A DNA stretch of 49,671 bases from Gammaproteobacteria bacterium (GTDB taxonomy: Bacteria; Pseudomonadota; Gammaproteobacteria; Steroidobacterales; Steroidobacteraceae): NCBI GenBank assembly GCA_020029535.1, contig JAIBJM010000032.1, positions 1 to 49,671 on the forward strand. The letters are read 5' to 3'. A program made the position numbers and the translations under genes. This document shows positions 13,102 through 30,638 of this stretch, piece after piece. Within the stretch, counting starts at the first letter, position 1, and every line of letters starts with the position of its first letter. The notes beneath the pieces are model-generated. The model searched no databases. It had not been told where the DNA came from and worked only from the letters and a program-made list of their open reading frames with translations.

Positions 13102-13238
13102 AGAACGATGACGGCGGTCGAGCGAACTCTCGCCCGGGGCGGATTGATGTGCTTGTCGGGATGATCGCCCCGATCCCAAGAATTAGCCATCCGCCTCGCC
13201 CCTCGGCAACAGCGGGCCCAACGATCGAGGAGACCTGC

Positions 13239-14726
13239 ATGGCGGCCGCGCCGTCCAGCATCCCATCTGCTTCCACGCCGCGCCCGCCCGCGGGCATCGC
13301 CTGCGACAGGTCCGTATCGATCTGCCAGGCGTTCGCGCACGATACCGACACGCCGGCCGATCCGGATCGGCAACCGCCGTGGGCCGTTCTGGCACCACGT
13401 AACATCGAAGAGGTTCAGGCCGTGATCTGCTGGGCCAATGACAATGGCACCGGCCTGATCCCGGTGTCGTCGAGCGGTCGACGCCGCCGCGGCGACACCG
13501 TGCCCGCACGCAACGGTACGGTGATCGTCGACCTGTCGGGCATGAAGAGGCTGGTGCATGTCGACGCGCGCGACAAGATCGCCATCATCGAGCCCGGCGT
13601 CGACTTCGGCAGCATCGACGCCATGCTGCAACCGCACGGTCTGCGCGTCTACCGTCCACTGGCGCCGCGCGCCGGCAAGTCGGTGTTGGCCAGTTACCTC
13701 GAGCGCGAACCGATTCTCGCGGCCAACGACCATTGGGACGTCGGTGACCCGTTCGGCGGCACGGGCGTCATGCTCGGCAACGGCCGCTACGCACCGACCG
13801 GCGGTGCTGCCATCGAAGGTACGTTGCCCGAGCATCTGGCGCGCGGCCACCGGCAGATGGTGCCGGTCGGTCCGATGAACCTGGACATCCTGCGCGTCAT
13901 GCAGGGTGCGCAGGGCAGCCTCGGGGTGATGGGCTGGGGTGCCGTCTATTGCGAGCGCATCCCGCTGCAGGAGCAGACCTTCTTCGGCAGCGCTGCACAG
14001 CTCGAGCCGGTGATCGACATGGCGCGCGACCTGCTGCATCGCCGGCTGGGCAACGCGCTGTTCATCGTCGACCGCGTTCAGCTCGCGATGTTGCTGGCCG
14101 ACGACGCCAACAGTTTCGCGGCGCTGCAGAGCGCGCTGCCCGCCTGGATCCTGTTCGCCAGCATCGCGGCCGACCGGTACCGCACGCAAGAGAAGATGGC
14201 GTGGCAGCTCGCCGATCTGCGGCATCGCGCGCAGGCCCGCGGCGTAAACCTCGATGAGGTGCTCGCCGGTACCAGGGCCAGCGAACTGTCGCAGCGGCTG
14301 CGGCGCGCGGATGCGAGCTCGTTCCGCGACAACCTGCAGGGCGCGCATCGCGAACTTTTTTTCCTGCAGCAGCTCGATCGCGCGGGCTCGTTTCTGCCAC
14401 TGGTGCAAGGCTGCCTGGCGCAGGCCGGCCTCGGCGGCGCGCCGCTGGGCGTGTACATCCAGCCGACGACGCAGGGCGTGAACTGCCATGTCGAATTCAC
14501 GCTGTCCTACGACCCGCGCAAGGACGACGAGGCGCGACGCTCGCAGTCCGCATGGACGCAGGCGGCGCAGCACTGCGCGCAGGCCGGCGCCTTCTTCAGC
14601 CGGCCCTACGGCGCATGGAGCGATATCGCGTTCAAACGCGACCGCGCGATTCTGCCGATGCTGACGATCGCCAAATCGGTGTTCGATCCGCTCGGCGTCA
14701 TGAACCCCGGCCGACTGCCCTACTGA
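13239..14726 (+). CDS. FAD-binding oxidoreductase, VAO/PCMH family
   Basis: Flavoprotein of 495 residues. The FAD_binding_4 domain is visible in AVLAPRNIEEVQAVICWAND, GTVIVDLSGMKRLVHVD, IIEPGVDFGSIDAMLQPHGL and GAQGSLGVMGWGAVYCERIP. The C-terminal substrate cap closes with the family ending VFDPLGVMNPGRLPY. The ATG at 13239 follows AGGAGA by five bases. First gene of a three-gene operon with an iron-sulfur protein and a second FAD oxidase, an arrangement like GlcD/GlcF/GlcE or cresol/vanillyl-alcohol-type dehydrogenases. I infer a substrate dehydrogenase that feeds electrons through the Fe-S partner to the quinone pool. The substrate is unknown. Confidence 0.88.
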   Translation: MAAAPSSIPSASTPRPPAGIACDRSVSICQAFAHDTDTPADPDRQPPWAVLAPRNIEEVQAVICWANDNGTGLIPVSSSGRRRRGDTVPARNGTVIVDLSGMKRLVHVDARDKIAIIEPGVDFGSIDAMLQPHGLRVYRPLAPRAGKSVLASYLEREPILAANDHWDVGDPFGGTGVMLGNGRYAPTGGAAIEGTLPEHLARGHRQMVPVGPMNLDILRVMQGAQGSLGVMGWGAVYCERIPLQEQTFFGSAAQLEPVIDMARDLLHRRLGNALFIVDRVQLAMLLADDANSFAALQSALPAWILFASIAADRYRTQEKMAWQLADLRHRAQARGVNLDEVLAGTRASELSQRLRRADASSFRDNLQGAHRELFFLQQLDRAGSFLPLVQGCLAQAGLGGAPLGVYIQPTTQGVNCHVEFTLSYDPRKDDEARRSQSAWTQAAQHCAQAGAFFSRPYGAWSDIAFKRDRAILPMLTIAKSVFDPLGVMNPGRLPY

Positions 14727-14737
14727 ACATCCTACCC

Positions 14738-16036
14738 ATGAACTCACCGCAAACCCTCGAAGAGCGCAGCGACTTTCTGGCGCGCTGTGTCCGTTGCTCC
14801 CAATGCAAGTTCGTGCCGGCGCCCAAGAGCAAGGCTTACGCATCGATCTGCCCCAGCATCGACTACGGCAACTTCCACGCCTACAGCGCCAGCGGCCAGC
14901 TCATCAACGGCCTCGGCCTGCTGGAAGACAAGATCCAGTACACGGAGGAGTTTCTCCACAGTGTCCAGAGCTGCACGATGTGCGGTGGCTGCGACAGTTC
15001 GTGCAAGGTGAACTATGCGGAGCTGGTGCAGCCGCTGGATTCTCTCTACGCATTGCGCGCCAGGATCGTCCGTGACGGGCACGCTCCGGCCACATATCGC
15101 ACGCTGATCGACAACCTGCGCAACCACGGCAACAAGCTCGGTCGTCCGCGCGCGGAGCGCTCGCGCTGGGCCGACGGGCTGAGCCTGGCGGTAGCCGGCG
15201 CGGGCCAGCCCGCCGCCGAGGTACTGCTGCACGTCGGCGCCGATCTCGCGTACGCGCAGGATCGCTGGCCGGGTCTGCGGTCGATCGTGCAGGTGCTGCT
15301 CAACGCCGGCGAGTCGCTGGTGCACGGCGGCACCGACGAAGCCCCGTCAGGCAGCCTCGCCTTCGACCTCGGCTACACGGAAGAGTCACGCGCCTTCGCG
15401 AGTGCCACCGTGGAACAGGTGCGCCGAAGCGGTGCCCGCACGCTGGTCACGTTCTCGGCCTCGGCATTGGCCGCATTCCGCGCCGTGTATCCGCGCTTCG
15501 GACTGTCGTTCGGGTCGGTCCGCGTGCTGCACATCACCGAGTACGTGCACGAGCTGGTCGCGAAGGGACGCCTGACGCTTCGAGTCGTGACCACGGACTC
15601 GGCGGCCTACCATGACCCTTGCAAGCTCGGCCGCCTGGCCGAGCCCTTGCAGCCGCACGACACCACGCTGGACGTCAAGATGAACGCCATCTACGTCACG
15701 CGCACACCGCAAGCGCTGCGCTTTGGCAACGATGGCTGCTACGAAGCGCCGCGCGCGCTGATGGGCGGCATGGGCATGCCGGTGGTCGAACTCGAACGCA
15801 ACCGCTCTGCCAGCTATTGCTGCGGCGCCGGCGGCGGCACGAGGGAGGCTGTGCCAGAGGCGGCGCGTCTGGCGGCCAGGAACCGGCTCGCGGAGGTGCA
15901 GTCTTGCGGCACGCCGACGCTGGTCACCGCGTGCAGCGGATGCGCCGCGCATCTGAGCGAGACGGCCCGTGCCGAGGGCATTCAGGTCCAGGTGCTGGAC
16001 CTGCTGGATCTGCTGGCGCAGGCGCTGCAGCCATGA
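14738..16036 (+). CDS. Iron-sulfur protein with two 4Fe-4S motifs and CCG domains (GlcF/HdrD-like)
   Basis: Electron-transfer subunit of 432 residues. The second ferredoxin motif is canonical: Cys79-xx-Cys82-xx-Cys85-xxx-Cys89 (CTMCGGCDSSC). The first is unusual: Cys17-xx-Cys20-xx-Cys23, then 14 residues before Cys38-Pro. Two cysteine-rich CCG segments follow: YHDPCKLGR with downstream YCCGAGGGTRE, and TACSGCAAHL. This is the make-up of glycolate oxidase GlcF and heterodisulfide reductase HdrD. It sits between two FAD oxidases and its stop overlaps the next start (ATGA). The start at 14738 gives a compact N-terminus; the ribosome site is weak (11-base gap from the preceding stop). Confidence 0.88.
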   Translation: MNSPQTLEERSDFLARCVRCSQCKFVPAPKSKAYASICPSIDYGNFHAYSASGQLINGLGLLEDKIQYTEEFLHSVQSCTMCGGCDSSCKVNYAELVQPLDSLYALRARIVRDGHAPATYRTLIDNLRNHGNKLGRPRAERSRWADGLSLAVAGAGQPAAEVLLHVGADLAYAQDRWPGLRSIVQVLLNAGESLVHGGTDEAPSGSLAFDLGYTEESRAFASATVEQVRRSGARTLVTFSASALAAFRAVYPRFGLSFGSVRVLHITEYVHELVAKGRLTLRVVTTDSAAYHDPCKLGRLAEPLQPHDTTLDVKMNAIYVTRTPQALRFGNDGCYEAPRALMGGMGMPVVELERNRSASYCCGAGGGTREAVPEAARLAARNRLAEVQSCGTPTLVTACSGCAAHLSETARAEGIQVQVLDLLDLLAQALQP

Positions 16037-17712
16037 CGACACCAGGAATGGAACTGCCCGCCGCCGTACGCGCCGAGTTTGAGCGCATCGTCGGGCCGCG
16101 CAACGTCAGCGCCGACCCCGCGATGCTCAGCGGTTACGCCTGGAACACCGGCATTGGCTCGGTGCCTCCCTCGGGCAGGAAGTTCGCCGATGTCTGGCCG
16201 ATCGCCGTCGTGCTGCCGGGCAACACCGAAGAGGTGGCTGCGTTGGTCAAGTGTTGCCTGCGCCACAAGCTGACCTTCAAGGCGCACTCGACCGGATACG
16301 GTTCGATGAGCCGGGTGGCCAGCCCGGACACGGTCGCCGTCGATCTGCGCCGCATGGACACGCTGGAGATCGACGCCAGCAATCGCATGGCGATCATCGG
16401 ACCGTACGTGACGGCCGGCAAACTGCAAGCCGAGGCGCTCAAGCATGGACTGACCTGTCACATCGTCGGTGCCGGTCCGGCGCATTCGCCGCTCGCGTCG
16501 GCCACGTCACTGATCGGCGTGGGTATCACCTCGCAGAGCACGAGCATGAATGCGCGCAACCTGCTCTCATGGGAGTGGGTGACGCCGCAGGGTGACATCG
16601 TGCGCGGCGGCTCCGCCGGCAGCGACTGCGGCTGGTTCACCGGCGATGGACCTGGCCCCGGCGTTCGTGGGCTGCTGCGCGGCTTCGTCGGGGCCTCCGG
16701 CGGACTGGGCATCTTCACCAGGATCGGCTACAAGCTTTATCCGGTCCCGCTGCAGGGCCCGCCCGCGAACACCGGCCGGCCGCCGCAGATCGGCATGGCC
16801 GTCCCGCCGAACTATGCGTTGATGCACGCAGTCTGGCCCGACTGGGAACGGCAGCGTGACGCATCGTTCGAGCTGACCGATGCCGGCGTCGCCAACATCA
16901 TGCTGCGCATCCCGCCGGACGAGATCGGCTGGATGCTGACTGCCACCAATGCCGAGTACGTGGAGCTGGCCACTGGCGGGCGCCTCCCGCCGGTGGCGCG
17001 GGAGGAGAACGGCAAGCATTGGGCCATCGTGACCGCATCGCGTTCGGCGGCGGAGCACGCCTGGCGCACCTCGGTCGTGCGCGACATCGTGCAACGCACT
17101 GGCGGGCGCATGCTGGAGCTCGCGCCCGAGCAGGCCGAGGTGCTGCTGCGCAACCTCGTGACTTCGATCTACATCCCCCGGGTGCTACGCCCGTCCGGCG
17201 GGATCATGACGACGTTCGGTGTGCTGGACTCGTTCCACTTTCTGCCGGGCGCGATCGAGGCCGCCGAAGAGACGCTGGCGGGGGAAACCAGACCCGGTGG
17301 CAAGCTGGTCGAGGGCGGCCGCGAAGAGCACTGGATCTGGCCGCACGAAGGCCGCTACTTCTGGGCCGAGAACATCGTCGACTTCGACACGACGAACGAG
17401 GCGTCGTGTCATGCCGCGGTCTACGCGCTGCTGTCGCACTTCGCGATCAGCTTCCGCAATCCGGTGGGGGTGCTGACGCTCGGGATGGGTCCGGTCATGG
17501 ACCTGCAAGGCGACAAGATCGGCGCGCCGCAAGAGTACGTGCGCGGCGTGAAGAACCGTCTCGACCCCGAGGATGCCTCGCGCACGGGCGACTTCATCAT
17601 CGTGAAGATGCCCAAGCTGGTGAAGATGCTGCTGCCGTTGGCGCGGCCGCTGATCCTGTCGCGCGCCGGATTATCCTTCCTGGCGCGCGCTATCGTGAAG
17701 AAGGGTTTGTAA
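16033..17712 (+). CDS. Second FAD-binding oxidoreductase of the trio
   Basis: A 559-residue flavoprotein of the FAD_binding_4 superfamily: PIAVVLPGNTEEVAALVKCC, KAHSTGYGSMSR, TVAVDLRRMDTLEIDASNRM, VTAGKLQAEALKHGLTC and VGASGGLGIFTRIGYKLYPV. Translation is coupled to the iron-sulfur gene (ATGA overlap). It is longer than GlcE and distinct from the first FAD protein, so the complex may have two different flavin sites. The last 60 residues contain a hydrophobic, basic segment (LVKMLLPLARPLILSRAGLS) that could anchor the complex to the membrane. Its 3' end overlaps the convergent NmrA-like gene by 23 bases. The substrate is unknown. Confidence 0.88.
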   Translation: MTTPGMELPAAVRAEFERIVGPRNVSADPAMLSGYAWNTGIGSVPPSGRKFADVWPIAVVLPGNTEEVAALVKCCLRHKLTFKAHSTGYGSMSRVASPDTVAVDLRRMDTLEIDASNRMAIIGPYVTAGKLQAEALKHGLTCHIVGAGPAHSPLASATSLIGVGITSQSTSMNARNLLSWEWVTPQGDIVRGGSAGSDCGWFTGDGPGPGVRGLLRGFVGASGGLGIFTRIGYKLYPVPLQGPPANTGRPPQIGMAVPPNYALMHAVWPDWERQRDASFELTDAGVANIMLRIPPDEIGWMLTATNAEYVELATGGRLPPVAREENGKHWAIVTASRSAAEHAWRTSVVRDIVQRTGGRMLELAPEQAEVLLRNLVTSIYIPRVLRPSGGIMTTFGVLDSFHFLPGAIEAAEETLAGETRPGGKLVEGGREEHWIWPHEGRYFWAENIVDFDTTNEASCHAAVYALLSHFAISFRNPVGVLTLGMGPVMDLQGDKIGAPQEYVRGVKNRLDPEDASRTGDFIIVKMPKLVKMLLPLARPLILSRAGLSFLARAIVKKGL

Positions 17713-18718
17713 GCGCAGCGCCCGACAGCCGCGCCGGCTCGGTCTCGTCGCCGAAGAAGCGGCGGTGCTCCTGCAGCCAGGCGCGCATCGTCGTGGGCTG
17801 GTGCCCCAGCACACTCTCGAGGAACTGGTTGGGCACCCACATGTGCGCATTCGCTTCTTCAAGCTCAAACATGTTCCAGAGGTATTCGGGAACGGCCGCA
17901 GGTACGGCCCCCATGTCGATCAGCGGCTGGAAGAACTTGAACAGCCCCTCGCGGCTGCCGTCGTGCCGAATCGGCCGCAAGAACACGTCGGTCATCATGC
18001 GTGCGACGTCCGATGAGCGCAGGCCCGGCTGGCCGTTGTTCAAGGTGTAGAACTGATACAGGTGGCGCGCATCGTTGGACAGCAGGATGCGTGCCGCGGC
18101 TTCGCCGACCTCGCGCGGATCGATGTAAGGTACCCGCCGGTCGTGCCAGCGCAGGACGCCTTCTTCCCGGATCATGCCGGCCAGGCGCAGGTAGTTGTCC
18201 ATGTAGCTGGAGCCGATGTTGAAATAGGTCGCCGGCATCTGCGCGTCGTCGAGCACCTGGCGCGCGATCGGGTGCTGGATCTCGAGGCCCATGCCGAAGT
18301 CGCGAAGGGCCTGCGGGATGCGCGCGAGGTTGAAGTCGGGAAACATGCCCACCAGGCGGATCATGTGGATCAGGCTGCCCGACTTGCGCACTGCGGCTAC
18401 CAGGTTCGACATTGCCGGCGCTTCGTCGGTACCGGTGGTGGTGATGACCAGCAGGCCCTGGATGCCGGCAAGTGCCGCGTCGAGGCTGGACGGTTCGTAG
18501 TAGTTGGCCTGCACGGCCTCGGCATACGGATGCTGCCGGCGCAGCTGCTCCACCTTTTCAGCGCTCGAGCCGATCAGGCGGAGCCGGACATTGGGTGCAT
18601 GGAACCGCAGGAAGCGCGCCATCGGACCGCCGATGTGGCCGTTCGCACCGAAGATGGCCACACTGTCTGGAATGGGTTTGATGAAAGTCGAGTGCGGCAC
18701 TGCTCGACGTTCACGCAT
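17690..18718 (-). CDS. NmrA-like NAD(P)-binding protein (copy 1)
   Basis: A 342-residue atypical short-chain dehydrogenase/NmrA-family protein. The N-terminal Rossmann loop reads SVAIFGANGHIGGPMARFL, followed by the characteristic Asn/Tyr-rich substitution of the SDR active site (GSSYMDNYLRLAGM) and the conserved HDRRVPYIDPREVGEAAARI. Such proteins act as redox sensors or as quinone/nitroreductase-like enzymes, and a role here is not evident. The ATG overlaps the stop of the second copy (ATGA), and the two are clearly tandem duplicates differing in length: this one lacks the C-terminal extra domain of its neighbour. It converges with and overlaps the FAD oxidase gene by 23 bases. Confidence 0.88.
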   Translation of the reverse strand: MRERRAVPHSTFIKPIPDSVAIFGANGHIGGPMARFLRFHAPNVRLRLIGSSAEKVEQLRRQHPYAEAVQANYYEPSSLDAALAGIQGLLVITTTGTDEAPAMSNLVAAVRKSGSLIHMIRLVGMFPDFNLARIPQALRDFGMGLEIQHPIARQVLDDAQMPATYFNIGSSYMDNYLRLAGMIREEGVLRWHDRRVPYIDPREVGEAAARILLSNDARHLYQFYTLNNGQPGLRSSDVARMMTDVFLRPIRHDGSREGLFKFFQPLIDMGAVPAAVPEYLWNMFELEEANAHMWVPNQFLESVLGHQPTTMRAWLQEHRRFFGDETEPARLSGAALTNPSSR

Positions 18719-20022
18719 CAGGCGCGCCTGATGCCTTCGATGGCCGTCTTGCCCATCATGCCGGCCTTGGCATGTCCGGCGAGCTGATTGCCGTTCACCT
18801 GAACCTCGACCTTCAGTGTCAGCTTGATCGGCTCGAGCATCTGCATGGTCCAGGTGAACACGTTGCCGTTGAACTTGCCGTCCTGCAAAGGCAGTGACGT
18901 TCCCGTCCTGACGCTCTTCATCTCGCCTTCGAGCCGTCCGTCCGGCGTGCTGCGCACGGTGAGCTCGTTCGGCTCCTTGCCCATCGGCGTGGCCACCGTG
19001 CAGTCCCAGACGCCGTCGATCGACGCGGCGCCAGCCGTCGGCGCCTCGCGTATCAGAGCCGGCCGCGTGACATCGCCAAAGTGATGGAGGTGTTCCATCA
19101 GCCATGCCCGCAGCGTGTTGGGCTTGCGGCCCAGCAGGGTCTCGAGGAACTTGTTCGGCACCCATACATGCTCGTTCGCGTTTTCGTATTCGAAGAAGTT
19201 CCAGAGGTATTCGGGAACGGAGGCGGGCGCCAGCCCGGCATCGATGAGCGGCTGGAAGAACCTGAACAGCCCCTCGCGGCTGCCGTCGTGGGCGATCGTT
19301 CGCCCGAGCATTCCGCTGAGCATCTGCGCCACTTCGGAAGGCCGCAGACCGGATTCGCCGTTGTTCAACGTGTAGAACTGGCCGACATGGCGCGAATCGT
19401 CGGACAGCAGCAGGCGCGCCGCGGCTTCGCCGATCTCGCGCGGATCGAGGTACGGCACGCGCCGGTCGTGCCAGCACAGCAACCCTTCATGAATCATGCC
19501 CGCCATGCGCAGGTAGTTGTCCATGAAGCTGGCACCACAGTTGAGGTAGGTGACCGGCATGTCCGCGTCGTCGAGGATCTGCCGCGCGATCGGATGCTGG
19601 ATCTCGAGGCCGAGCCCGAAGTCGCGCAACGCCTTGGGAATGCGCTTCGGGTTGGTGTCGGGCTGTATGCCGGTGATGCGGATCATGTGGATCAGCGCGC
19701 CCGACTTGCGCAGGGCAGCCACCAGGTTCGACATCGCCGGACGTTCGTCGAGCAGCGAGGTGGTGATCACGAACACGCCCTGGATGCCGACCATCGCAGC
19801 GTCGAGGCTCGATTGATCGAAGTAGTTGGCCAGCACGACTTCGGCGCCGGGATGCTGCTGCCGCAGCTCGCCGAGCTTGTCGGCGCTGGAGCTGATGAGC
19901 CGCAGCCGGATGTGGGGCGCATGGAATCGCAGGAAGCGCGCCATCGGGCCGCCGATGTGGCCACTGGCGCCGAAAATCGCCACGCTGCTGGGGATCGGTT
20001 TGATAAAGGCGCTGGGAGTCAT
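18718..20022 (-). CDS. NmrA-like protein with C-terminal beta-rich domain (copy 2)
   Basis: Residues 1 to about 330 are a paralog of the downstream gene: SSVAIFGASGHIGGPMARFL, MDNYLRMAGM, HDRRVPYLDPREIGEAAARL. Residues about 336-434 form an added domain that begins DGVWDCTVATPMGKEPNELT and alternates short strands (LEGEMKSVRTGTSLPLQDGK, FNGNVFTWTMQM, LKVEVQVNGNQLAGHA). I know this pattern as a small stand-alone domain of proteobacterial catabolic clusters with no assigned activity. Its fusion to NmrA suggests binding of a hydrophobic ligand, which is inference. AGAGG lies seven bases before the ATG. First gene of a two-gene coupled unit. Confidence 0.88.
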   Translation of the reverse strand: MTPSAFIKPIPSSVAIFGASGHIGGPMARFLRFHAPHIRLRLISSSADKLGELRQQHPGAEVVLANYFDQSSLDAAMVGIQGVFVITTSLLDERPAMSNLVAALRKSGALIHMIRITGIQPDTNPKRIPKALRDFGLGLEIQHPIARQILDDADMPVTYLNCGASFMDNYLRMAGMIHEGLLCWHDRRVPYLDPREIGEAAARLLLSDDSRHVGQFYTLNNGESGLRPSEVAQMLSGMLGRTIAHDGSREGLFRFFQPLIDAGLAPASVPEYLWNFFEYENANEHVWVPNKFLETLLGRKPNTLRAWLMEHLHHFGDVTRPALIREAPTAGAASIDGVWDCTVATPMGKEPNELTVRSTPDGRLEGEMKSVRTGTSLPLQDGKFNGNVFTWTMQMLEPIKLTLKVEVQVNGNQLAGHAKAGMMGKTAIEGIRRA

Positions 20023-20139: not shown

Positions 20140-22290
20140 TCAGTGAATACTGCCCGCGCCGGGTTCATCCAGGCGCTGTCCGCGCTGACCGGCTATCGCT
20201 CGGGCGTGTTCCGCGATGGTGTCCAGGGCGGCCCGGGTTTCGGAGAGGAAGTCGAACAGTGCGAAGCTGTGCACGCTGTCCGTAACCAGCGTCAACGTAG
20301 CGGCGACACCGGCCGCGCGGGCCCTGGCGACCAGGGCCCGCGCGTCACCTGCGAGTGCCTCGTCTGCAGCCGCAAAGACCAGCAGTGGCGGCAGCTTCGA
20401 CAGATCGGCATGCAGCGGCGAATGGAGCGGTGCAGCGGGATCGTCTCCCTGAGTCCAGGCTCCGGCCATCGTCAGCAGGCGCGAGCGCGACAGCCATGGG
20501 TCCGACTTTTCGTTGGTGTCGATGGATGGAGAAGAAAGCGTGGCATCGACGAAGGGCGAGTGCAGGTAGAGCGCAAGAGGCCGGCGCACTTCGCGCTCGG
20601 CCCGCACACGCAGCGCAAGGCTGACCGCGAGGCCGGCACCCGAGCACTCTCCGCTCACAAAGGCCAGCGCGGCGCGCTGTTGCAGCCAGCGCCACGCTGT
20701 TGCCACCTGATCGAGCGTTGCTGACGCCGCTTGCTCGGGAATCGGGCCGAAGTCGGGCACCAGTGCCCAACCGCCGACGGCGCGCGCGTGCGCCGCGGCG
20801 ATCGCAATCGAAGTTGCTGCGGAACCGTACAGATACCCACCGCCGTGCAGATGCAGAATCGCCGGCCCGTCTGCCTGTCCGGCAGGCGTAACCTTCAGCG
20901 CCGGCACCCCGTGGCAGTCGATCGCTTCGACCTGCGTATCGGCAGGCCGCGGGCATTGCGCAGACATGGCCCTTTCATACGCCGCGCGCTCGCTGATCCA
21001 GCCGTGCAGCAGGTCATCGCCGCTGAAAAGATCGCGCCAGAAGGTGAAGGCACGTTTCGCTTCGGGACGCCGCGGCATGCGCACGCTTTCCGCCAGGATT
21101 TCCGCGAACGGCCGGACTGCAGCCTTCACCTCATCGTGCTGGTATTGCCAGGCCATACGCGCGTAGCCGGTCGGGTCGAGCCGCATCACGCCGCGGTTCA
21201 TGCGGCCGCGAACGGCAATTCGTCCGGAATCGGTCTCGTGGAAGCTTTGCAGATCGACCCGTGAGGAATGCAGTACGCGTGTAGTGCGCGGCCAGCGCCG
21301 TGCCTGGAACTCGGCGAAGGCGTTCTGATGGTCGCCGCCGTGGCGTGCCAGGCAACCGGCCAGGCACACCGAATCCTCCAGAGCCATGCCGGCACCGGTA
21401 CCCGAGGTGGGCAGCACCGGATGCGCCGCATCGCCCACCAGCACGACGCGGCCCCGATGCCAGGTCTCGATCGGCGACCGATAGTAGATACCGGTTATGA
21501 AGGCCTGCTCGACGCCTGCGGCGATCTCGCGAACATCGGCGCAGGCATCCGCAAACGAGCGACGCAGTTCTTCGAGATCGCCGGTCATCGACCAGTCCTC
21601 ACGATGAATTTCGGCCGCCGGCACGTAGAAGCTCGCGTAGATCTGCGCGCCGCGCCGGATCGGATAGCTGACGACGTGCCGGCCCGAACCGAGCCACAGC
21701 AGCGCCTCGCGCGTGAACTGACGGCTGTAGTTGGCGGTCGGCACGACTGAGCGCCATGCCAGATAGCCGGTGAAACTGGCCGCACTCTCGCCGAACAGTG
21801 CCTTGCGTACGGTCGAGCGCAGACCATCCGCACCGATGAGCAGATCGCCCTCGATCGAACGGCCCCGGGCGAGTTGCAGCGTCACACCGGCTGCGTCCTG
21901 CGCGACATCGATGATCGGACTCTCCAGCAACATCGTGACGCCGCTCAACTGGCCCGCGAGCGCATCGATCAGATCGCGCCGATGGGTCATGCAGGTTTCG
22001 ATGCCGTACAGCTTGCGGCCGGTCTCGCCCAGCTCGTTGGCGACGCGCAGTGTTCCGTCGTCGATGTTGTGGAACTTGATCCGCTCGGGCGGCAGGTTGA
22101 TGTGGCGCACGTGCCCGGCGGCGCCGAGGGACTCCATCACGCGCATGGCATGCGGGCCGAGTACCACGCCGGCACCGACTTCCGACAGCGCCGGCGCGCG
22201 TTCGACGATCGTGATCTCGTGACCCGAGCGGCGCAGCGCGATCGCCGTCGCCAGACCGCTCACGCCGCTACCTGCTATCAGTATCCGCAT
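20140..22290 (-). CDS. Fusion: FAD aromatic monooxygenase + alpha/beta hydrolase with Cys nucleophile
   Basis: A 716-residue two-domain enzyme. Residues 1 to about 400 are a class A flavin monooxygenase of the salicylate/3-hydroxybenzoate hydroxylase type: GSGVSGLATAIALRRSG at 7-23, the DG motif LLIGADGLRSTVR, and the GD motif RVVLVGDAAHPVLPTSGTGA at 281-300. Residues about 440-700 are a hormone-sensitive-lipase-like hydrolase: oxyanion HGGG at 482-485, acid Asp643, His674. The elbow is GECSG (547-551), so the usual Ser is Cys549, as in dienelactone hydrolases. It is the last gene of the operon headed by the gentisate-type dioxygenase. A reaction combining ring hydroxylation with ester or lactone cleavage is plausible; the exact substrate is unknown. 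Confidence 0.9.
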   Translation of the reverse strand: MRILIAGSGVSGLATAIALRRSGHEITIVERAPALSEVGAGVVLGPHAMRVMESLGAAGHVRHINLPPERIKFHNIDDGTLRVANELGETGRKLYGIETCMTHRRDLIDALAGQLSGVTMLLESPIIDVAQDAAGVTLQLARGRSIEGDLLIGADGLRSTVRKALFGESAASFTGYLAWRSVVPTANYSRQFTREALLWLGSGRHVVSYPIRRGAQIYASFYVPAAEIHREDWSMTGDLEELRRSFADACADVREIAAGVEQAFITGIYYRSPIETWHRGRVVLVGDAAHPVLPTSGTGAGMALEDSVCLAGCLARHGGDHQNAFAEFQARRWPRTTRVLHSSRVDLQSFHETDSGRIAVRGRMNRGVMRLDPTGYARMAWQYQHDEVKAAVRPFAEILAESVRMPRRPEAKRAFTFWRDLFSGDDLLHGWISERAAYERAMSAQCPRPADTQVEAIDCHGVPALKVTPAGQADGPAILHLHGGGYLYGSAATSIAIAAAHARAVGGWALVPDFGPIPEQAASATLDQVATAWRWLQQRAALAFVSGECSGAGLAVSLALRVRAEREVRRPLALYLHSPFVDATLSSPSIDTNEKSDPWLSRSRLLTMAGAWTQGDDPAAPLHSPLHADLSKLPPLLVFAAADEALAGDARALVARARAAGVAATLTLVTDSVHSFALFDFLSETRAALDTIAEHARAIAGQRGQRLDEPGAGSIH

Positions 22291-22302: not shown

Positions 22303-23058
22303 CTACTGGTATGCGCGTCCGCCATCGACTACGCAGGTGCTGCCGATGACGCACGACGCGTCGCTGCTGAGCAGGAAAGCAATCACCGCGGCGATCTCTT
22401 CGGGTCGCGCGAGGCGACCCAATGCATAGCGCGCGATGAAGCCATCACGAACGTTCCTGGGCTTGCCCTCGAGAAAATCGCTGGTCATCGGCGTATCGAC
22501 GGCGCCGGGACAGACGGCATTCACGCGGATGGAGGGTGCGAGCTCGGCCGCGATGGTGCGGCTGAACTGCAATAACCCGGCTTTGGCGGCCGAGTAGGCC
22601 GCACTGCTGACGCCCGGGCGCAATGCGGCGAGCGCAGCGACGTTGACGATTGCTGCGCTGTTGCCCTGCTGGGCCGCATGGCGCAGGTGCGGAAGCGCCG
22701 CGCGACAGACAAAGAACGGTGCCGTGAGGTTGATGAGCAGACTCTCGTTCCACTGTGCTGCATCGAGCTCTTCGAGCTTGCCGATGCCGAGCACACCGGC
22801 GCTGTTGACGACGCCGTCGAGCCCATCCATGCGCTGCGCGCATTCGTCTACCGCGCGCGCCGCTGCGTGCTCGTCACGCAAGTCGGCGCACACCGGGATG
22901 CCTCCCGTGACCGACGCAACTTCCACCAGCGGTTCGCTGCGGCGGCCGACCACCGCGACACGCGCGCCTTCCTGCGCGCAACGCAGCGCCACGGCGCGGC
23001 CGATGCCGCTGCCTCCACCGGTGACCAGGATGCGGCGTCCCTGCAGCCGTGCGTTCAC
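22303..23058 (-). CDS. SDR-family oxidoreductase lacking the usual catalytic Ser
   Basis: Classical short-chain dehydrogenase of 251 residues: cofactor loop TGGGSGIG (13-20), NSAGVLGIG, Asn110, and Tyr155-xxx-Lys159 (YSAAK). Arg39-Arg40 after the second strand (VVGRRSEPL) favour NADP. The residue 13 before the Tyr, normally the catalytic Ser, is Ala142 in VNVAALAALRPG. Ser151/Ser152 are nearby but not in the standard place, so activity may be altered. The start is GTG and overlaps the upstream gene's TGA (GTGA). Within the operon it probably acts on a hydroxyl or keto side chain of the aromatic substrate; this is inference. Confidence 0.9.
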   Translation of the reverse strand: MNARLQGRRILVTGGGSGIGRAVALRCAQEGARVAVVGRRSEPLVEVASVTGGIPVCADLRDEHAAARAVDECAQRMDGLDGVVNSAGVLGIGKLEELDAAQWNESLLINLTAPFFVCRAALPHLRHAAQQGNSAAIVNVAALAALRPGVSSAAYSAAKAGLLQFSRTIAAELAPSIRVNAVCPGAVDTPMTSDFLEGKPRNVRDGFIARYALGRLARPEEIAAVIAFLLSSDASCVIGSTCVVDGGRAYQ

Positions 23059-24029
23059 CTGACCTCCAGCAGAACCTTGCCCAGTTGCGCGTTGCTCCGC
23101 ACATGCGCCAGCGCGGCCTGCGCTTCCGCGAACGGGAACACGCTGTCGATCGGCGGAGTAATCCGGTGCTCGGCGATTGCGGACAGCACGTCAGCCGCAA
23201 AGGCACGGGCAATCTCGGCCTTCTCGTCGATGCTGCGCGTACGGAATGTGACGCCGATCAGCCGGATGCGCTTGTAGGCCAGCAGCGCGATGTCGAGCGT
23301 GTCGCTGGGGCCACCGAGCCGTCCGACTGCCACGATACGGCCGCAGATCGCGGCGGCATCGACATTCCCCGCGAGCGCGCCGCGGCCCACCATATCGATG
23401 ATCAGGTCGACGCCCCGCCCCGCGCTGGCATCCCGGACCGACTGCGGCCACGCCGAGTCAGCAGTGAACACATGGTTGAACCCGTATTGGTCAAGGCGAC
23501 GCAGTCTGGCAGCGGAGCGAGCGACACCGATCACCGTGCGGGCACCAAAAAGCCGCGCGAGCTGTGCTGCCGCGATACCGACGCCCGATGTGGCGCCCTG
23601 GATCAACACCGCCTCGCCGGCCTGTAGCCCGCCCTCGCCAACCAGTGCGTTGTGCGCAGTCATGTACCAGGCCGGCAGCGCGGTGGCGCTGCGCCAGTCC
23701 ATGCCGGCCGGTATGCGGACAGCGAGCCGGTGATCGACGCTTGCGAATTGCGCAAAGCAGGCAGGCGATAGCGCCATCACGCGATCGCCGGCCTCGAACC
23801 CGCGACATTCGGCCCCGACGGCGACCACCTCGCCCGAGAGCTCGCTGCCGGCGACGCCCGCAGGATTCTCCGCGTAGTGCGTCTTCGACAACGCAAGGTC
23901 GGCGCGATTGATGCCGACCATTGCGACGCGCACCAGCAGATCGCTGGGGCCGGCAATGGGCACCTCCAGTTCACGCAGTACCAGGCGCGCAGTGCCCGGG
24001 TCGGCGTCATCGATCACCAGCGCTTTCAT
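23055..24029 (-). CDS. Zinc-independent MDR / quinone oxidoreductase-like protein
   Basis: Medium-chain reductase of 324 residues, quinone oxidoreductase/enoyl reductase branch. The GroES-like N-terminal half has VAMVGINRADLALSKTHYAE and AGSELSGEVVAVGAECRGFE. The nucleotide-binding half has the signature VLIQGATSGVGIAAAQLARL. The Cys/His zinc ligands of alcohol dehydrogenases are not present. The ATG at 24029 overlaps the upstream stop (ATGA); the frame is open for 50 more codons without homology, so I reject the longer start. It is one of four genes in this operon joined by 4-base overlaps or zero spacing, so it should be made with the ring-cleavage enzymes. The substrate is unknown. Confidence 0.9.
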   Translation of the reverse strand: MKALVIDDADPGTARLVLRELEVPIAGPSDLLVRVAMVGINRADLALSKTHYAENPAGVAGSELSGEVVAVGAECRGFEAGDRVMALSPACFAQFASVDHRLAVRIPAGMDWRSATALPAWYMTAHNALVGEGGLQAGEAVLIQGATSGVGIAAAQLARLFGARTVIGVARSAARLRRLDQYGFNHVFTADSAWPQSVRDASAGRGVDLIIDMVGRGALAGNVDAAAICGRIVAVGRLGGPSDTLDIALLAYKRIRLIGVTFRTRSIDEKAEIARAFAADVLSAIAEHRITPPIDSVFPFAEAQAALAHVRSNAQLGKVLLEVR

Positions 24030-24895
24030 GAGGTCTCGCCGATGCCTTGCCAGCGCGACAGCTCGACCGCGTCGGTCAGTATCTTCAGCGCGCCGGTCGC
24101 ATCTGCCAACGGTGGAGGCGAGGCGCCGGTGCGGGCTGCATCCTGCAGTGCGGTGAGCGTGTCGGCGAACAGCCTGCACATCGGCAACAGCAGCACGAGC
24201 GGATACACGATCAGCGTATATCCCATCGCATGCAGTTCGCGCACGGAGAGCGCGTCGTCTCCACCCTGCATCACGACAGCAAGAGGCGTTCCCTTGAACG
24301 AGCGGCCGATACGCGCGAGATGCCCGGGGTCGCGGACGCCTGCGACGAACAGGCCGTCGACGCCGCAGCGCAGGAACAGCTCCGCCCGACGCTGGGCCGC
24401 GTCGATGCCGAGTGCGCCATAAGCATCGGTTCGGCCAACGATCCAGAAATCACGATCGTCGCGCGTCGCGACGGCCACGCGCAGCTTGGCTGCAATGTCA
24501 TCCTCCGGCACGACGGCGAGCGCAGCGGTCTGCCCGGGCCGCTTGACCTGGCGCGCCTGGTCCTCGATTACCAGCGCACCGATACCCATCGACTCATTGC
24601 TGCGCACCGTCCGCGCCACCGACTTCACATCGCCGTAGCCGTCATCGCCGTCGGCCATGCAGGCGAGGCCCTGGGCGGCCATGATGTCGCGCGCTGCGGC
24701 CGAGAAGTCCGCCAGGCCTGCGATGCCAAGATCCGGCATCGCATAGCGCGCGGCCAGAACGCCGGAGCCGCTGATTGCCATGGCCGGGAATTGCGCACGC
24801 TCAATCAGGCGGGCGGAGAGTGCGTCATGCGCCGCCGGCATCACCAGCGGCGCGCCGCGACCGAGCAGCTCGCGGAAGGTGGCCCGCCGGGCCAT
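24026..24895 (-). CDS. Isocitrate lyase/PEP mutase superfamily enzyme
   Basis: TIM-barrel lyase of 289 residues. It shows the family start RATFRELLGRGAPLVMPAAHDALSA in two adjoining blocks, the metal-site loop MADGDDGYGD, the VIEDQARQVKRPG segment and VGRTDAY. The KKCGH active-site loop of isocitrate and methylisocitrate lyases is not seen, so it is better compared with oxaloacetate decarboxylase, dimethylmalate lyase or carboxyphosphonoenolpyruvate-mutase-like members. The ATG directly follows the TAG of the FAH gene. In this operon it could split a branched dicarboxylate formed after ring cleavage; this is inference. Confidence 0.88.
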   Translation of the reverse strand: MARRATFRELLGRGAPLVMPAAHDALSARLIERAQFPAMAISGSGVLAARYAMPDLGIAGLADFSAAARDIMAAQGLACMADGDDGYGDVKSVARTVRSNESMGIGALVIEDQARQVKRPGQTAALAVVPEDDIAAKLRVAVATRDDRDFWIVGRTDAYGALGIDAAQRRAELFLRCGVDGLFVAGVRDPGHLARIGRSFKGTPLAVVMQGGDDALSVRELHAMGYTLIVYPLVLLLPMCRLFADTLTALQDAARTGASPPPLADATGALKILTDAVELSRWQGIGETS

Positions 24896-25783
24896 CTACG
24901 ATCCCGCGCCGATGTGCCGGACAATTTCGTGCGGGCGCACCTTGACCGTCATCGAGCCGATGCCGGCGATCGATGCCGTCATCACATCGCCCGGATAGAC
25001 GCGCGAAACGCCCGCCGGGGTACCCGACATCACGATGTCGCCCGGATGCAGGGTGTACCAGCGCGAGACCCATGCAATCTGTTCGGCGATGCCAGAGATC
25101 ATCCGGCCCGTGTTCGTCTGTTGCCGCGTCTGACCGTTCACCTGGAAGCTCAGCTCGAGGTCTTGTGGATCGGTGATCTCGTCCGCGGTGACGAGCCATG
25201 GCCCCAGCACTGAATAGCTGTCGATCGACTTGCGCAGGCTCCGGTCCTGCGTGCCGCGTACCACCATGTCCAACCCGATCGCATAGCCGGCTATGTGATC
25301 GAGCGCCTCGGCTTCGGGAATGTCGCTGCCACCCTTGCCGATTACATACGCGAGCTCGGCCTCGTGGTCGGTGCGCAGCTCGGGGAACCGGATCGCGACC
25401 CCTTGCGACGGACCGATCAGCGACGAGGTTGCCTTCAGAAACAGGCCATCCACATACACCGGCCGGATCTCGCGCCTGGCGCGCAGCTCTTCGTCGCGCA
25501 GGCCCTCGTCGGCGTGGTCCTGGTAGTTGACCGGTACGCCGATGATCTTGCCCGGGTTCGCGACCGGCGACAGCAGGCGCACCTCGGCAACGGGTCTGGT
25601 TGCAACCTTGCCGACCAGGAACTGCATTCGCGGGCGAAGTCGCTCCAGATGCGCGATGAGCTGATCGCCAGGCGGAAACGGATATCCTGACCGCGGAATC
25701 CCTTCAAGCAGCGTGGTCACGTCGTGGATGATGTCGCCCTCGACCACGCCGAGCCGGTTGTCGTCATAGCGGCAATATTTCAA
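24896..25783 (-). CDS. Fumarylacetoacetate hydrolase-family protein (maleyl-/fumarylpyruvate hydrolase type)
   Basis: Hydrolase cleaving a C-C bond of a ring-fission beta-diketo acid, 295 residues. Metal ligands Glu141, Glu143 (DHEAELAYVIGK) and Asp172 (GLDMVVRGTQD) and the Lys185 region are all in place; MSGTPAGVSRVYPGD is the C-terminal family loop. The start is most likely TTG at 25783, one base after the dioxygenase stop, giving KYCRYDDNRLGVVEGD from residue 2. A longer open frame upstream overlaps the dioxygenase in another frame and is rejected. Directly downstream of a gentisate-type dioxygenase, the natural role is hydrolysis of maleyl- or fumarylpyruvate to pyruvate plus a C4 dicarboxylate. 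No maleylpyruvate isomerase is present. Confidence 0.9.
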   Translation of the reverse strand: MKYCRYDDNRLGVVEGDIIHDVTTLLEGIPRSGYPFPPGDQLIAHLERLRPRMQFLVGKVATRPVAEVRLLSPVANPGKIIGVPVNYQDHADEGLRDEELRARREIRPVYVDGLFLKATSSLIGPSQGVAIRFPELRTDHEAELAYVIGKGGSDIPEAEALDHIAGYAIGLDMVVRGTQDRSLRKSIDSYSVLGPWLVTADEITDPQDLELSFQVNGQTRQQTNTGRMISGIAEQIAWVSRWYTLHPGDIVMSGTPAGVSRVYPGDVMTASIAGIGSMTVKVRPHEIVRHIGAGS

Positions 25784-25784
25784 T

Positions 25785-26825
25785 TCAGGCGCTCTCGTGG
25801 CGAAGCAAACCGAGACGCCGCTGGACATCGGCGTCACTGACGATGAAGAGCACGGCATGGTCGGATTCAGCGCGGTGACTGGTCCAGGTCCAGTGCGGCA
25901 AGGTGAATATGTCGTTCTCGCTCCAGCGCAGTTGCTGGCCGCCAAAACTCGATACACCCGAACCGGCACCGACGATGCAGATCCCGCTGGCGGTGCTGCG
26001 GACCGCGCGCGTGGGTTGGCGCGATATGCGGACCATGCAGCAGTCCATGCCCGGCATTGCAGCGCCGTCACCGGCGGGGTTGGTCAGGCGCACCGCAACG
26101 GAGCCGTCAGGCTGCGGTGGCGCGGCGTCGAGTGCGGCGAGCGTCGCTTGCCAGGCAAAGCGGAATCGTGGCGAATAACCCGAAGCGACTGCATCCGGCA
26201 AGAGCGGCGCGTAACCTGGCTCGACGAATGCCGCATCGGCGACTGTGCAAGGCATCGCACCGTCGAGCTTCGATGCGGGATCGAAGAAACCGGCATCGAG
26301 GTAGTTGCACAGCTGGGAGTCCAGGACGTCGACCCAGACGCTGCGCGACGCGCCTCGATGGAAGTGGCCGTGCCAGGTGTAAGCGGGCGTCAGGATGACG
26401 TCGCCGCGCTCCATGCGGCATGGTTTGCCGTCAACCTCGGTGCAGGTATCGCCGCCGTCCTCGATCACGAAGCGCAACGCATTCGGCGTGTGACGATGCG
26501 GCCGGGCCGATTCGCCCGGCATCAGCATCTGCAGGCCGGCCTGCAGTACGGGCGTGACGTGCGGGTCCCGGGCGGCGTTCGCGAAGGCCGGGTCGCCGAG
26601 CAACAGCACACGGCGCTCGGCATTGCGCAGGGTGGTTTCGCGGACGGCCTGATCCAGCAGTGGCTGCAGCGCTGACCACGGCCAGTGACAGGCCGGCGCG
26701 GTTTGCGGCTCGCCGGTCTGGTGCAGCGTCGTCATCTCCCACAGCGCGTAGAGATGGTGTGACGCTGCACTCCGGGCGAAGTCATCGGTGCGGGTGATTT
26801 CGGTGGTCGACACGGGACATCGCAT
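25785..26825 (-). CDS. Gentisate 1,2-dioxygenase-like bicupin
   Basis: Ring-cleaving Fe(II) bicupin, 346 residues. The N-terminal cupin has the gentisate dioxygenase pattern LMPGESARPHRHTPNALRFV with His110 and His112, and His152 in TPAYTWHGHFH. A second cupin (IFTLPHWTWTSHRAESDHAVL) closes the protein. Members open gentisate, 1-hydroxy-2-naphthoate or salicylate to pyruvate-bearing products. It is the first gene of a six-gene minus-strand operon. Start options are ATG 26825 and GTG 26813; neither has a Shine-Dalgarno, and the predicted transcript starts only about ten bases before the ATG. Exact substrate not determinable. Confidence 0.9.
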   Translation of the reverse strand: MRCPVSTTEITRTDDFARSAASHHLYALWEMTTLHQTGEPQTAPACHWPWSALQPLLDQAVRETTLRNAERRVLLLGDPAFANAARDPHVTPVLQAGLQMLMPGESARPHRHTPNALRFVIEDGGDTCTEVDGKPCRMERGDVILTPAYTWHGHFHRGASRSVWVDVLDSQLCNYLDAGFFDPASKLDGAMPCTVADAAFVEPGYAPLLPDAVASGYSPRFRFAWQATLAALDAAPPQPDGSVAVRLTNPAGDGAAMPGMDCCMVRISRQPTRAVRSTASGICIVGAGSGVSSFGGQQLRWSENDIFTLPHWTWTSHRAESDHAVLFIVSDADVQRRLGLLRHESA

Positions 26826-26881: not shown

Positions 26882-27802
26882 TCAGCTTCCGGCCGCGTAG
26901 CCCAGCTTGCGCGAGGCCGCGCGCGCCGTCTCGACGATCCGGTCGATGCGATGGTTGTCGCCCAGCAGACTGAATTGACTGGTGCCGAATACCGTCAGAG
27001 CGATCGGCATTCGGCCCTGATGGTCGAATATCGGCACGGCGACCGTCTCGAGGCCAAAATGGTCGGGGCGGGGGAATACGGCCCTGAGCCCAAGCCGCTG
27101 GTGGTCGCCGGTCGCGGTCGTCGCCGAAAACCCGCGCTTGCGCACGGCCGTCAGCAAAGTCCCGATCTGGTCACGATCGATCGGCTTTGCCGGATGCTCG
27201 GCGTTCCAGGCCTTGATCTCGGCCTTCAGCAGGGGAGCGAGTTCGGATGCCTCACGGTGCGAGGCCATCAGCCGTCCGGTGGCCGACCACAGCACCGGCA
27301 GTACGCGCCCTTCTTCGATCTTGAGTTGCTGGCCGAGCCGGCCGGCCTGCCAGCGAACCACGGTAGGGCCATGGGTGCCCCAGACCGACAGATGACAGTC
27401 CAGACCGGAGCGCTCGCTGTAGGCCTGCAGCGCATCGATGCCGACGCGCAGGGCGTCGAGTTGCCCGAGTGCCTGCAGACCGATTTCGATTGCTGCCTCA
27501 CCGAGCCAGTAGTCGCCGGAGTTCGGATCCTGTTGAACAAAGCCGGCGGCGAGCAGGCTGGAGAGATAACGGTGGACACGATTGGCGGTGAGCCCGCTAT
27601 TCGCGGCAATCTCGCGCAATGGCTGCGGACGTCTGGCACTGCCGATTGCACGCAGCACCGAGAGCCCGACGAACATTGCCCGGACACCGTTCCCGGCACC
27701 GTCCCCGGCGTCTTCGCCGATCGGTTTGCTGCGCGGCCGCCCGCGCCTGCGCGGCAGGGCAGCAGCCGATTGGGTGACGGAAAGTGGTGACGGATGCTTC
27801 AC
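26882..27802 (-). CDS. IclR-family transcriptional regulator with basic AT-hook-like N-terminus
   Basis: Regulator of about 306 residues. The winged helix-turn-helix is in MFVGLSVLRAIGSARRPQPL and REIAANSGLTANRVHRYLSS; the IclR effector domain follows, with HLSVWGTHGPTVVRWQAGRL, VLPVLWSATGRLMAS and VAVPIFDHQGRMPIALTVFG. Before the HTH lies a tail with PRRRGRPRSKP, an AT-hook-like RGRP core that is not typical of the family. I chose GTG 27802 (AGGA eight bases upstream; about 40 bases after a GATAAT box). A TTG at 27862 or GTG at 27832 would lengthen the tail. It is encoded just upstream of the dioxygenase operon and probably controls it. Confidence 0.85.
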   Translation of the reverse strand: MKHPSPLSVTQSAAALPRRRGRPRSKPIGEDAGDGAGNGVRAMFVGLSVLRAIGSARRPQPLREIAANSGLTANRVHRYLSSLLAAGFVQQDPNSGDYWLGEAAIEIGLQALGQLDALRVGIDALQAYSERSGLDCHLSVWGTHGPTVVRWQAGRLGQQLKIEEGRVLPVLWSATGRLMASHREASELAPLLKAEIKAWNAEHPAKPIDRDQIGTLLTAVRKRGFSATTATGDHQRLGLRAVFPRPDHFGLETVAVPIFDHQGRMPIALTVFGTSQFSLLGDNHRIDRIVETARAASRKLGYAAGS

Positions 27803-27845
27803 GGCGGAGTTCCTGATGCGGGGTGAGACCACATGCTTTCTGTAT

Positions 27846-27863
27846 ATTATCGTTGCATGCAAC
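27846..27863. promoter_or_regulatory. Palindrome and -10-like box between iclR and the carotenoid oxygenase gene
   Basis: The divergent intergenic region holds a perfect 12-bp palindrome GTTGCATGCAAC (27852-27863). On the minus strand it is followed immediately by GATAAT (27851-27846), five of six matches to a -10 box reading toward iclR. No strong -35 was found. The palindrome could be an operator for iclR autoregulation or for the oxygenase gene; its sequence differs from the 20-bp palindrome at 26834-26853, so a second protein may be involved. Confidence 0.5.
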
Positions 27864-27902: not shown

Positions 27903-29217
27903 ATGGGCACAGAAAGCAATATTTTCCTCAACGGACCGCATGCGCCGAGCGCGGTCGAAGGCCGCTTCGACGATCTGCCCGTCATCGGTTCGCTGCCGTC
28001 CGGCCTGTCAGGCGCCTGGTACACGATGAGCAGCAATCCGCTGTTCCCGCCGCAGATGCCGGAGCGCTATCACTGGTTCGAGGGCGACGGAATGATTTGC
28101 GCCCTGACTCTTGCCAACGGACGAGCATCGGTGGCGACGCGCTGGGTGGAGTCGGTCAGTCTGCTGGCCGAGCGACGCGCCGGCAGGGCGCTGTACGGGC
28201 CATTCGTGAATGGCAGCGTCATTCCGATGCCACCGCCGGCGGAAGGGCCACCCACGAAGAGCCCGGCGAACACGACGGCAATGATGTTCGCCGACCGGCT
28301 GTTCGTTTTCAGTGAAGAGGGCCTGCCGCATGTGCTCGATCCGGAAACGCTGCAAACCCTGGGACAGTTCGATTTCGGCAGCATTCAGGGGCCGGTGAGC
28401 GCGCATGGCAGGGTGGACCCGGACAATGGCGATCTGCTCTTTTATGGCGCCGTGGGGCCACAGCTGATCTGGTACCGGGCTGACCGGAATGCCCGTCTGC
28501 TCGAGAGCCAGGCGTTCGCAACTGGGCAGCCCTACGTTGTTCATGATTTCGCCGTGACGCCCGGCTATGCGATCTTTTTCACGACACCGACCATCGTCGA
28601 TATCGAGGGTGTCCAGCGCGGCGGCGCCGGAATGGTCTGGGAAGATGGACTTCCCGCGACCATCTGGTTGCTGGAGCGTGGTACCGGCAAGGTCACCTCC
28701 ATCGTCATGCCGGAGCGCTTTGCCATTACCCATTTTCTCAACGCCTGGCAGGAGGGCAACGAGATCGTGGTTCACGGCAATCGTACGCATCAATGGGCGG
28801 TGGCACGCGCCGATATCGACAAGCCACTGAAGCCGGGATTCTTTTATCCCGCGTTCCCGTGGGAATGGCGGATCGACTCGCGCGCCGGAACCGTCCGGGA
28901 GCGCCAGATCAGCACTGTCAATTGCGAATTTGCCCGCCACGATCCGCGACGCGTGGGCAGGCGGGTCCGTTACGGTTATTACGCTGCGACCGGAAACGAA
29001 GGATTCGGCCACAACTGGCTTTTCGATCGAATCATGAAGCTCGATATCGATTCAGGCGCTGCCGTCTTCTCCCGGCCCGAGGGCCTGACGGCGCCGAGCG
29101 AGACGATCTTCGTGCCGCGGCCGGGCGGAGTTAAGGAAGATGACGGCTGGACCATGACCCTGTGGTGGAATCCAGCCGTCGATCGCACCGCCACGGCAAC
29201 TGGCACCCGCGCGCTGC
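27903..29217 (+). pseudogene. Carotenoid/lignostilbene oxygenase, C-terminally truncated
   Basis: Retinal pigment/carotenoid cleavage oxygenase family, Fe(II) beta-propeller. It is well preserved up to about residue 425, with LPSGLSGAWYTMSSNPLFPP, WFEGDGMICALTL and three of the four iron-binding histidines: His168 (SAHGRVDPDNG), His214 (VVHDFAVTPGYAIFF) and His277 (ITHFLNAWQEGNEIVVHG). After DDGWTMTLWWNPAVDRTATA homology stops and the frame crosses into the antisense of a TonB receptor 3' end, staying open until 29408. The C-terminal FGFHGxW segment with the fourth histidine is missing, so iron binding should fail. It would have cleaved a stilbene- or carotenoid-type double bond. Divergent from iclR. 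Confidence 0.85.
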
Positions 29218-29620: not shown

Positions 29621-29629
29621 CTCGATTGG

Positions 29630-30604: not shown

Positions 30605-30638
30605 CGTTTATCCCCCGTAATTTTTTCAGTTGCTTAGT

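Follow-up and report, generated by a model that had tools for sequence, protein, structure and literature searches.

Each half of the protein described here comes from a well-known family. On the hydrolase side, the alpha/beta-hydrolase fold is found in the broad esterases E40, EstD11 and Est8, in dienelactone hydrolase (PF01738), which has a Cys at its nucleophile elbow, and in proteins such as ABHD5 that lack a nucleophile and are non-catalytic. On the monooxygenase side, the enzyme to compare is 3-hydroxybenzoate 6-hydroxylase (3HB6H) from Rhodococcus jostii RHA1 (PDB access codes 4bjy and 4bk3), and a passage of PMC5472690 presents His213 and Tyr217 as important residues of its active site. 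For the bacterial HSL family, a passage of PMC10385968 gives the motifs (E/D)XL and HXF and assigns to esterase EstD04 the triad Ser160-Glu253-His283, with 30 residues between Glu and His.

The window, which is the whole stretch of 49,671 nucleotides analysed, has no N letters and codes on its minus strand (20140..22290) for a protein of 716 amino acids, from ATG to stop, composed of a class A flavin monooxygenase (residues 1-~390), a linker and an HSL-type alpha/beta hydrolase (~431-700), as assigned from Pfam, NCBIfam and its relatives. Pfam places FAD_binding_3 at residues 3-338 (2.7e-28) and Abhydrolase_3 at residues 478-677 (1.5e-32) of this single uninterrupted frame. The first-pass annotation had proposed a complete class A monooxygenase joined to a hydrolase in one 716-residue frame, in agreement with the Pfam domains, and its motif positions (HGGG at 482-485, GECSG at 547-551 with Cys549, Asp643 and His674) are exact. 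Searches of an open-access library of papers showed no description of the fusion, and in the seven annotated Bradyrhizobium records the name given (alpha/beta hydrolase fold domain-containing protein) covers one half only. These plasmid-encoded Bradyrhizobium relatives (for example WP_164933583.1) share with the window's protein the order of the two domains, 57% identity, the elbow Cys and a related gene cluster, but differ by a Gly at the position of Asp643 and by LeuC/LeuD-like genes nearby.

Recurrence of the fusion

A search for proteins with the same two-domain order returned full-length relatives in Bradyrhizobium and in the window's own family. In a tblastn comparison with 72,556 plasmid records, 929 had a match and eight covered 80% or more of the query. 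Seven of the eight are Bradyrhizobium plasmids with the same domain order (97% of the query covered, 56.6% identity, residues 1-696). The eighth is a plasmid of Paraburkholderia sp. PGU19 whose copy (L025:12001-14117, where the record has no annotation) is of the Ser type (GESSG) and frameshifted, the change of frame after the nucleophile motif putting Glu and His in another frame. Full-length matches were also present in 25 of 242 Bradyrhizobium genomes (the genus of genome G1230), some of them on complete plasmids. This genus is taken to be Bradyrhizobium because the match lies, in several of its genomes, at almost the coordinates that it has on the named plasmids. An assembly chimera is ruled out by the same fusion on complete plasmid records, and the recurrence of the same order on Bradyrhizobium plasmids and in these 25 genomes shows that the join is not a misassembly.

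In the genome searches at most the five best candidates per genome were scored, except in the genus of genome G129. In the window's family (E <= 0.001) full-length matches occur, among the matches listed, in two of 200 genomes, the window's own and G129, which has four copies. The other six genome searches used E <= 1e-70. They gave, besides the Bradyrhizobium result, one of 14 genomes in the genus of G129 (G129 itself), one of 369 in the window's class (its own), two of 398 in its phylum (its own and G1230), one of 397 in the order of G566 (the same locus as in G1230) and one of 240 in the class of G1230 (G1230 itself). The class, phylum, G566-order and G1230-class searches, with up to five candidates scored per genome, thus showed no lineage beyond Bradyrhizobium and the window's family. 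A contig scan with the fused protein alone had a sole match, of 25% identity, in Chelatococcus.

The four paralogues of G129, two of them in direct tandem (L026:10050-14389, L027:7696-15227), differ in their nucleophile residue, which is Asp in one, Gly in another and Cys in the remaining two. Collapsing 32 records left 26 distinct fused proteins, a count that excludes the frameshifted L025 copy and takes L031 and L032 as one locus, represented by L032. Nineteen of them have Ser at the nucleophile position and seven do not (hereafter Ser and non-Ser proteins).

An ORF of 591 amino acids in G015 (L075:514-2286) has a Ser-type HSL domain at its carboxyl terminus behind a part of ~330 residues without assigned domain. 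It is possibly another fusion, or an ORF whose start was called too early.

The two halves and their active-site residues

The amino-terminal half (residues 1-390; 21121..22290, minus strand) features an FAD_binding_3 domain with the GxGxxG, DG and GD motifs of class A flavin monooxygenases (GSGVSG at 7-12, GADG at 153-156 and GDAAHP at 286-291). Its best NCBIfam match is 3-hydroxybenzoate 6-monooxygenase (NF006021, 3e-72); the earlier claim that the half is a complete class A monooxygenase agrees with both results. The NF006021 score of 243.9 bits lies below the cut-off of 459, and the half is consequently termed 3HB6H-like rather than filed as 3HB6H. Among its solved relatives are vanillate 1-hydroxylase, tropone 2-monooxygenase and the R. 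jostii 3HB6H, the last of which matches it over its full length (residues 2-388 with 8-398, 1.4e-47).

In this alignment H205 (21676-21678, minus strand) and Y209 (21664-21666, minus strand) correspond to His213 and Tyr217. Together with the best NCBIfam match, this correspondence supports hydroxylation of a hydroxybenzoate-type ring. Column 205 is His in five of the seven non-Ser proteins (the three from gentisate-type clusters, namely the window's, L024 and L039, as well as L005 and L059), Phe in L058 and Ala in L060, while the 19 Ser proteins have Thr (17) or Met (2). All of the 26 fused proteins but one have Tyr at column 209, the exception being L005 with Phe. 3HB6H is unlike the window's protein in covering the amino-terminal half only and in having Gln at position 301 of its chain (our count), where the fused protein has Pro294.

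The carboxyl-terminal half (residues 431-700; 20191..21000, minus strand), an Abhydrolase_3 domain of bacterial HSL / family IV esterase type, shares with E40 (4xvc), EstD11 (7at0) and EstD04 the fold family, the oxyanion motif HGGG (20836..20847, minus strand), and the motifs (E/D)XL, here EAL, and HXF, here HSF. It departs from these esterases by the monooxygenase fused ahead of it, by a degenerate YRLAPEHPFPA motif and by the replacement of the Ser of GXSXG with Cys549 (codon TGC, 20644-20646, minus strand) in the elbow GECSG (20638..20652, minus strand). Its score with the NCBIfam model GESAG_HSLs is 156.7 bits, below the cut-off of 430.

The HGGG motif is invariant in the 26 fused proteins, as are Glu644 (20359..20361, minus strand) of the EXL motif and His674 (20269..20271, minus strand) of the HXF motif. 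Column 643 varies (19 Gly, 3 Asp, and one each of Gln, Ser, Arg and Thr). Unfused HSL relatives have Ser at 549, Glu at 644 and His at 674 in all nine loci aligned, out of 11 fetched with L075 and L078 excluded, and a PDB search paired Glu644 with a Glu in E40 and Cys549 with the Ser in the GDSAG motif of that esterase. The probable triad acid is Glu644, since column 644 is invariant, column 643 is variable, and the (E/D)XL and HXF motifs fit, as does the Glu644-His674 spacing of 30 residues, equal to that in EstD04. Asp643, which the first-pass annotation had proposed for the triad, is rejected as its acid on account of the variable column next to an invariant Glu. Two other statements held. 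In the sequence alignment Cys549 does fall where solved HSL-type esterases have their nucleophile Ser, and Ser is indeed the normal residue there, in the nine aligned unfused relatives and in all 17 readable loci of a second set (30 loci, of which 12 were unreadable and one was the window).

The likeness to dienelactone hydrolase that had been drawn from the Cys extends, by alignment, to the elbow residue but not to family membership. The half has no Pfam DLH match (PF01738) up to E = 5, which places it outside this family; two relatives give weak matches (0.18 and 0.055), below the cut-off.

Gene neighbourhood and a proposed two-step reaction

The fused gene is the last in a run of genes on the same strand. 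Next to it are genes for a short-chain dehydrogenase (SDR, 22303..23058), a zinc-type quinone/enoyl reductase of the PIG3 family (23055..24179), a protein of the PEP mutase / methylisocitrate-lyase family (24026..24895), a fumarylacetoacetate-hydrolase (FAAH) family protein identified by Pfam and NCBIfam (24896..26071) and a gentisate 1,2-dioxygenase (GDO)-like cupin (25785..26825), with an IclR-type regulator upstream (26882..27862), all on the minus strand. The true start of the FAAH-family gene is probably downstream of the listed GTG, as the Pfam domain is matched from residue 175 onwards. The cupin scores 194.6 bits against an NCBIfam cut-off of 442.1; the NCBIfam matches of this protein and of both fused halves are thus far under cut-off.

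Parts of this arrangement recur. The Bradyrhizobium plasmid locus L024, whose fused protein has Cys, codes for counterparts of the IclR regulator (58%), the FAAH-family protein, the SDR (58%), the cupin (32-33%) and the PEP-mutase-family protein (43%), and has LeuC/LeuD-like genes in addition; no quinone reductase was seen there. In L062/L086 (G1383, Gly) are found an IclR regulator (53%, L086), a weak FAAH match, an SDR (51%, L062), a quinone reductase (55%, L062) and a cupin (55% to L062), and no PEP-mutase-family protein was seen in either. In L062 the cupin and fused genes are divergently oriented, which makes the arrangement there a cluster and not a single operon. On a plasmid of Streptomyces atratus, a flavin monooxygenase that is not fused is encoded beside a GDO-like cupin, an FAAH-family protein and an IclR regulator, which indicates that the fused gene occupies the place of the ordinary hydroxylase of a gentisate-type pathway. 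A GDO-like partner gene is a further likeness to 3HB6H.

The reading we favour, with a probability of about 0.45, is that one half of the protein is a hydroxylase supplying a gentisate-type ring cleavage and the other an alpha/beta-hydrolase domain working on the same aromatic; that the two halves would share this compound is suggested by the fusion and the gene cluster. The flavin half would add a second hydroxyl to a 3-hydroxybenzoate-type ring, para to the one already there, and the resulting gentisate-type hydroquinone would be opened by the cupin. An acyl derivative of this aromatic, whether an ester, a lactone or a thioester, would be the substrate of the carboxyl-terminal half, and the free carboxylate that the dioxygenase requires would thereby be released within the one protein. 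Support for the gentisate-type part comes from the partly shared cluster (GDO-like cupin, FAAH, SDR and IclR in L024 and L062/L086), and for a catalytic second half from its HSL fold family and intact HGGG, E644 and H674. Against this reading count the NCBIfam scores far under cut-off, the divergent cupin gene of L062 and, as described below, the Gly of L039 at column 549 and the features of the carboxyl-terminal half in the window's subclade. Through such proteins, root-nodule and other bacteria might prove to have an unrecognised way of bringing aryl esters or lactones into gentisate-type catabolism.

It is very improbable that two unrelated activities were fused for co-regulation only, the carboxyl-terminal half being a general Cys carboxylesterase for imported esters. 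The closest solved relatives of this half do include E40, EstD11 and Est8, and L072, the sole Ser-clade locus whose neighbours were scanned, is flanked by a TetR gene and a gene for a periplasmic binding protein. Such a loose association is opposed by the maintenance of the fusion in 26 distinct proteins of two groups, one of which lacks Ser and partly lacks any nucleophile. The fused copies of G129 have TonB-receptor and MFS genes as neighbours.

Two further possibilities were considered. One is an alkylated-gentisate route, in which an alkylmaleate would be hydrated by LeuC/LeuD-like proteins and then cleaved by the PEP-mutase-family lyase; besides the LeuC/LeuD-like genes of L024, a LeuC-like and a PEP-mutase-like ORF are present ~7 kb from the Ser-type fused gene of L065, and no paper on this route was found in a literature search. 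The other is a stilbene as source compound, considered because of a carotenoid-cleavage-type oxygenase gene at 27903-29408. No copy of this gene was seen in L024, L062 or L086; seven Bradyrhizobium plasmid records have some match to the oxygenase, none of them among the best 60 of 91 records.

The flanks of the run contain further oxidoreductase genes. A Rieske-type oxygenase gene (29630-30604, minus strand) is overlapped by an antisense ORF of 372 amino acids (29519-30637, plus strand); a G129 relative (L026:14988-15959, minus strand), 56% identical via the antisense frame, lies near two fused copies. A second flavin monooxygenase (32836-34440, minus strand), above the cut-off for the PRK06126 subfamily, is divergent from a VOC-type protein (34597-35235, plus strand), and the pair is also present in L086 (51% and 49%), ~18 kb from the fused gene of G1383. 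On the other side, two FAD_binding_4 oxidase-type proteins flank a 4Fe-4S/cysteine-rich-domain protein (13149-17712, plus strand), followed by two tandem ORFs, alike by eye, of NmrA type (17690-20022, minus strand; the domain scan covered 18718-20022 alone).

Variation at residue 549 and conservation of the hydrolase half

The nucleophile column of the 26 distinct fused proteins contains Ser in 19, Cys in four, Gly in two and Asp in one. The seven non-Ser proteins are those of the window (Cys), L024 (Cys), L039 (Gly), L005 (Asp), L058 (Gly), L059 (Cys) and L060 (Cys). In a maximum-likelihood tree a branch supported by 100/100 splits them from the 19 Ser proteins; the tree is midpoint-rooted and the tool warned of long branches, so the inner branching order is unsure. 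Ser is likely the ancestral state, since unfused relatives carry it. Across the non-Ser proteins, three residue types occur at column 549, and at least three types are found in 54% of the 265 C-domain columns: it varies like the average column, with no clear constraint. HGGG, Glu644, Asp649 and His674 show no variation in the same seven proteins.

The three non-Ser proteins with related gentisate-type clusters (the window's, L024 and L039) have Cys, Cys and Gly. As L039 combines Gly with neighbours like those of the window, a gentisate-type pathway there needs no Cys nucleophile. In the favoured two-step reading, Cys549-His674-Glu644 would form the triad of the window's protein, and in part of the clade the covalent step would probably be weak, have been replaced or have become dispensable. 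The part kept by the whole non-Ser clade is the His-Glu pair with the oxyanion hole, because relatives have Gly or Asp at 549, and the half may catalyse a reaction different from ordinary ester cleavage. The first-pass proposal of a Cys hydrolase survives as to the place of Cys549 at the elbow in the alignment and is weakened by the occurrence of Gly (twice) and Asp (once) among the seven non-Ser proteins, one Gly being in a related cluster. Cys is kept in four of the seven, but a relative with a similar cluster has Gly, and Cys549 may be either a working nucleophile or a relic.

These data bear on two alternatives, each unlikely and about equally so. According to the first, the fusion family gave up an obligatory nucleophile: His674-Glu644 as general base and the HGGG oxyanion hole would act non-covalently, across the non-Ser clade, on the short-lived product of the hydroxylase, Cys549 being tolerated and not used. 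Activated water might hydrolyse a C-C bond or a lactone; tautomerisation and control of the hydroxylated intermediate are the other candidate functions. The three residue types at column 549, compared with Ser in the nine aligned unfused relatives, are in its favour, as is the retention of E644 and H674 on three tips without nucleophile. Were both residues free there, the chance of keeping them would be exp(-2L) = 0.014, for tip lengths of 0.55, 0.67 and 0.92, an estimate that presumes average rates and loss of the nucleophile at the base of each tip. Conservation of Cys in four of seven proteins over long branches speaks rather for some use of the Cys.

According to the second, the half is a retired esterase, folded and non-catalytic like ABHD5, which would serve to stabilise, dimerise or gate the hydroxylase. 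Three different non-Ser residues without clear constraint at 549 speak for it, as does the degenerate state of the HSL motif at 514-525 in the window's protein, L024 and L039. The score with GESAG_HSLs, 255 bits for the Ser protein L040, falls to 157 for the window's. The unaltered HGGG, E644, H674 and D649 in all seven non-Ser proteins do not fit a retired domain.

Relative conservation of the two halves points both ways. The carboxyl-terminal half is the more conserved in the G129 pairs L005-L058 (Asp and Gly; 55.5 versus 45.2% identity) and L059-L060 (57.4 versus 45.4%), and likewise between the window's protein and the four G129 copies (45.6-47.1 versus 36.9-43.6%). The G129 pairs count for the gentisate-type two-step reading and against a retired esterase, and the Asp/Gly pair L005-L058 also agrees with nucleophile-independent chemistry. 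In the window's subclade the carboxyl-terminal half is the less conserved (window-L024, 56.4 versus 61.1%; window-L039, 51.1 versus 59.7%; L024-L039, 51.9 versus 63.1%). Together with the degenerate 514-525 motif this is expected if the domain is being lost, and the low values around L039 (Gly) weigh against chemistry without a nucleophile. Median dN/dS in the Ser clade is 0.13 for the amino-terminal and 0.106 for the carboxyl-terminal half (113 pairs past the dS filter), showing purifying selection on both; the ratio was taken for this clade only, because synonymous sites are saturated or nearly so between non-Ser proteins.

The fusion family is a natural mutational series (Ser, Cys, Gly, Asp) at an alpha/beta-hydrolase nucleophile within one architecture and partly within one type of gene cluster. 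It makes testable whether a His-acid pair and an oxyanion hole can do useful chemistry without a covalent nucleophile, and how an esterase switches reaction type.

Near the start of the carboxyl-terminal half, residue 459 is Cys in all seven non-Ser proteins, while the 19 Ser proteins have Leu (17), Ile (1) or Val (1).
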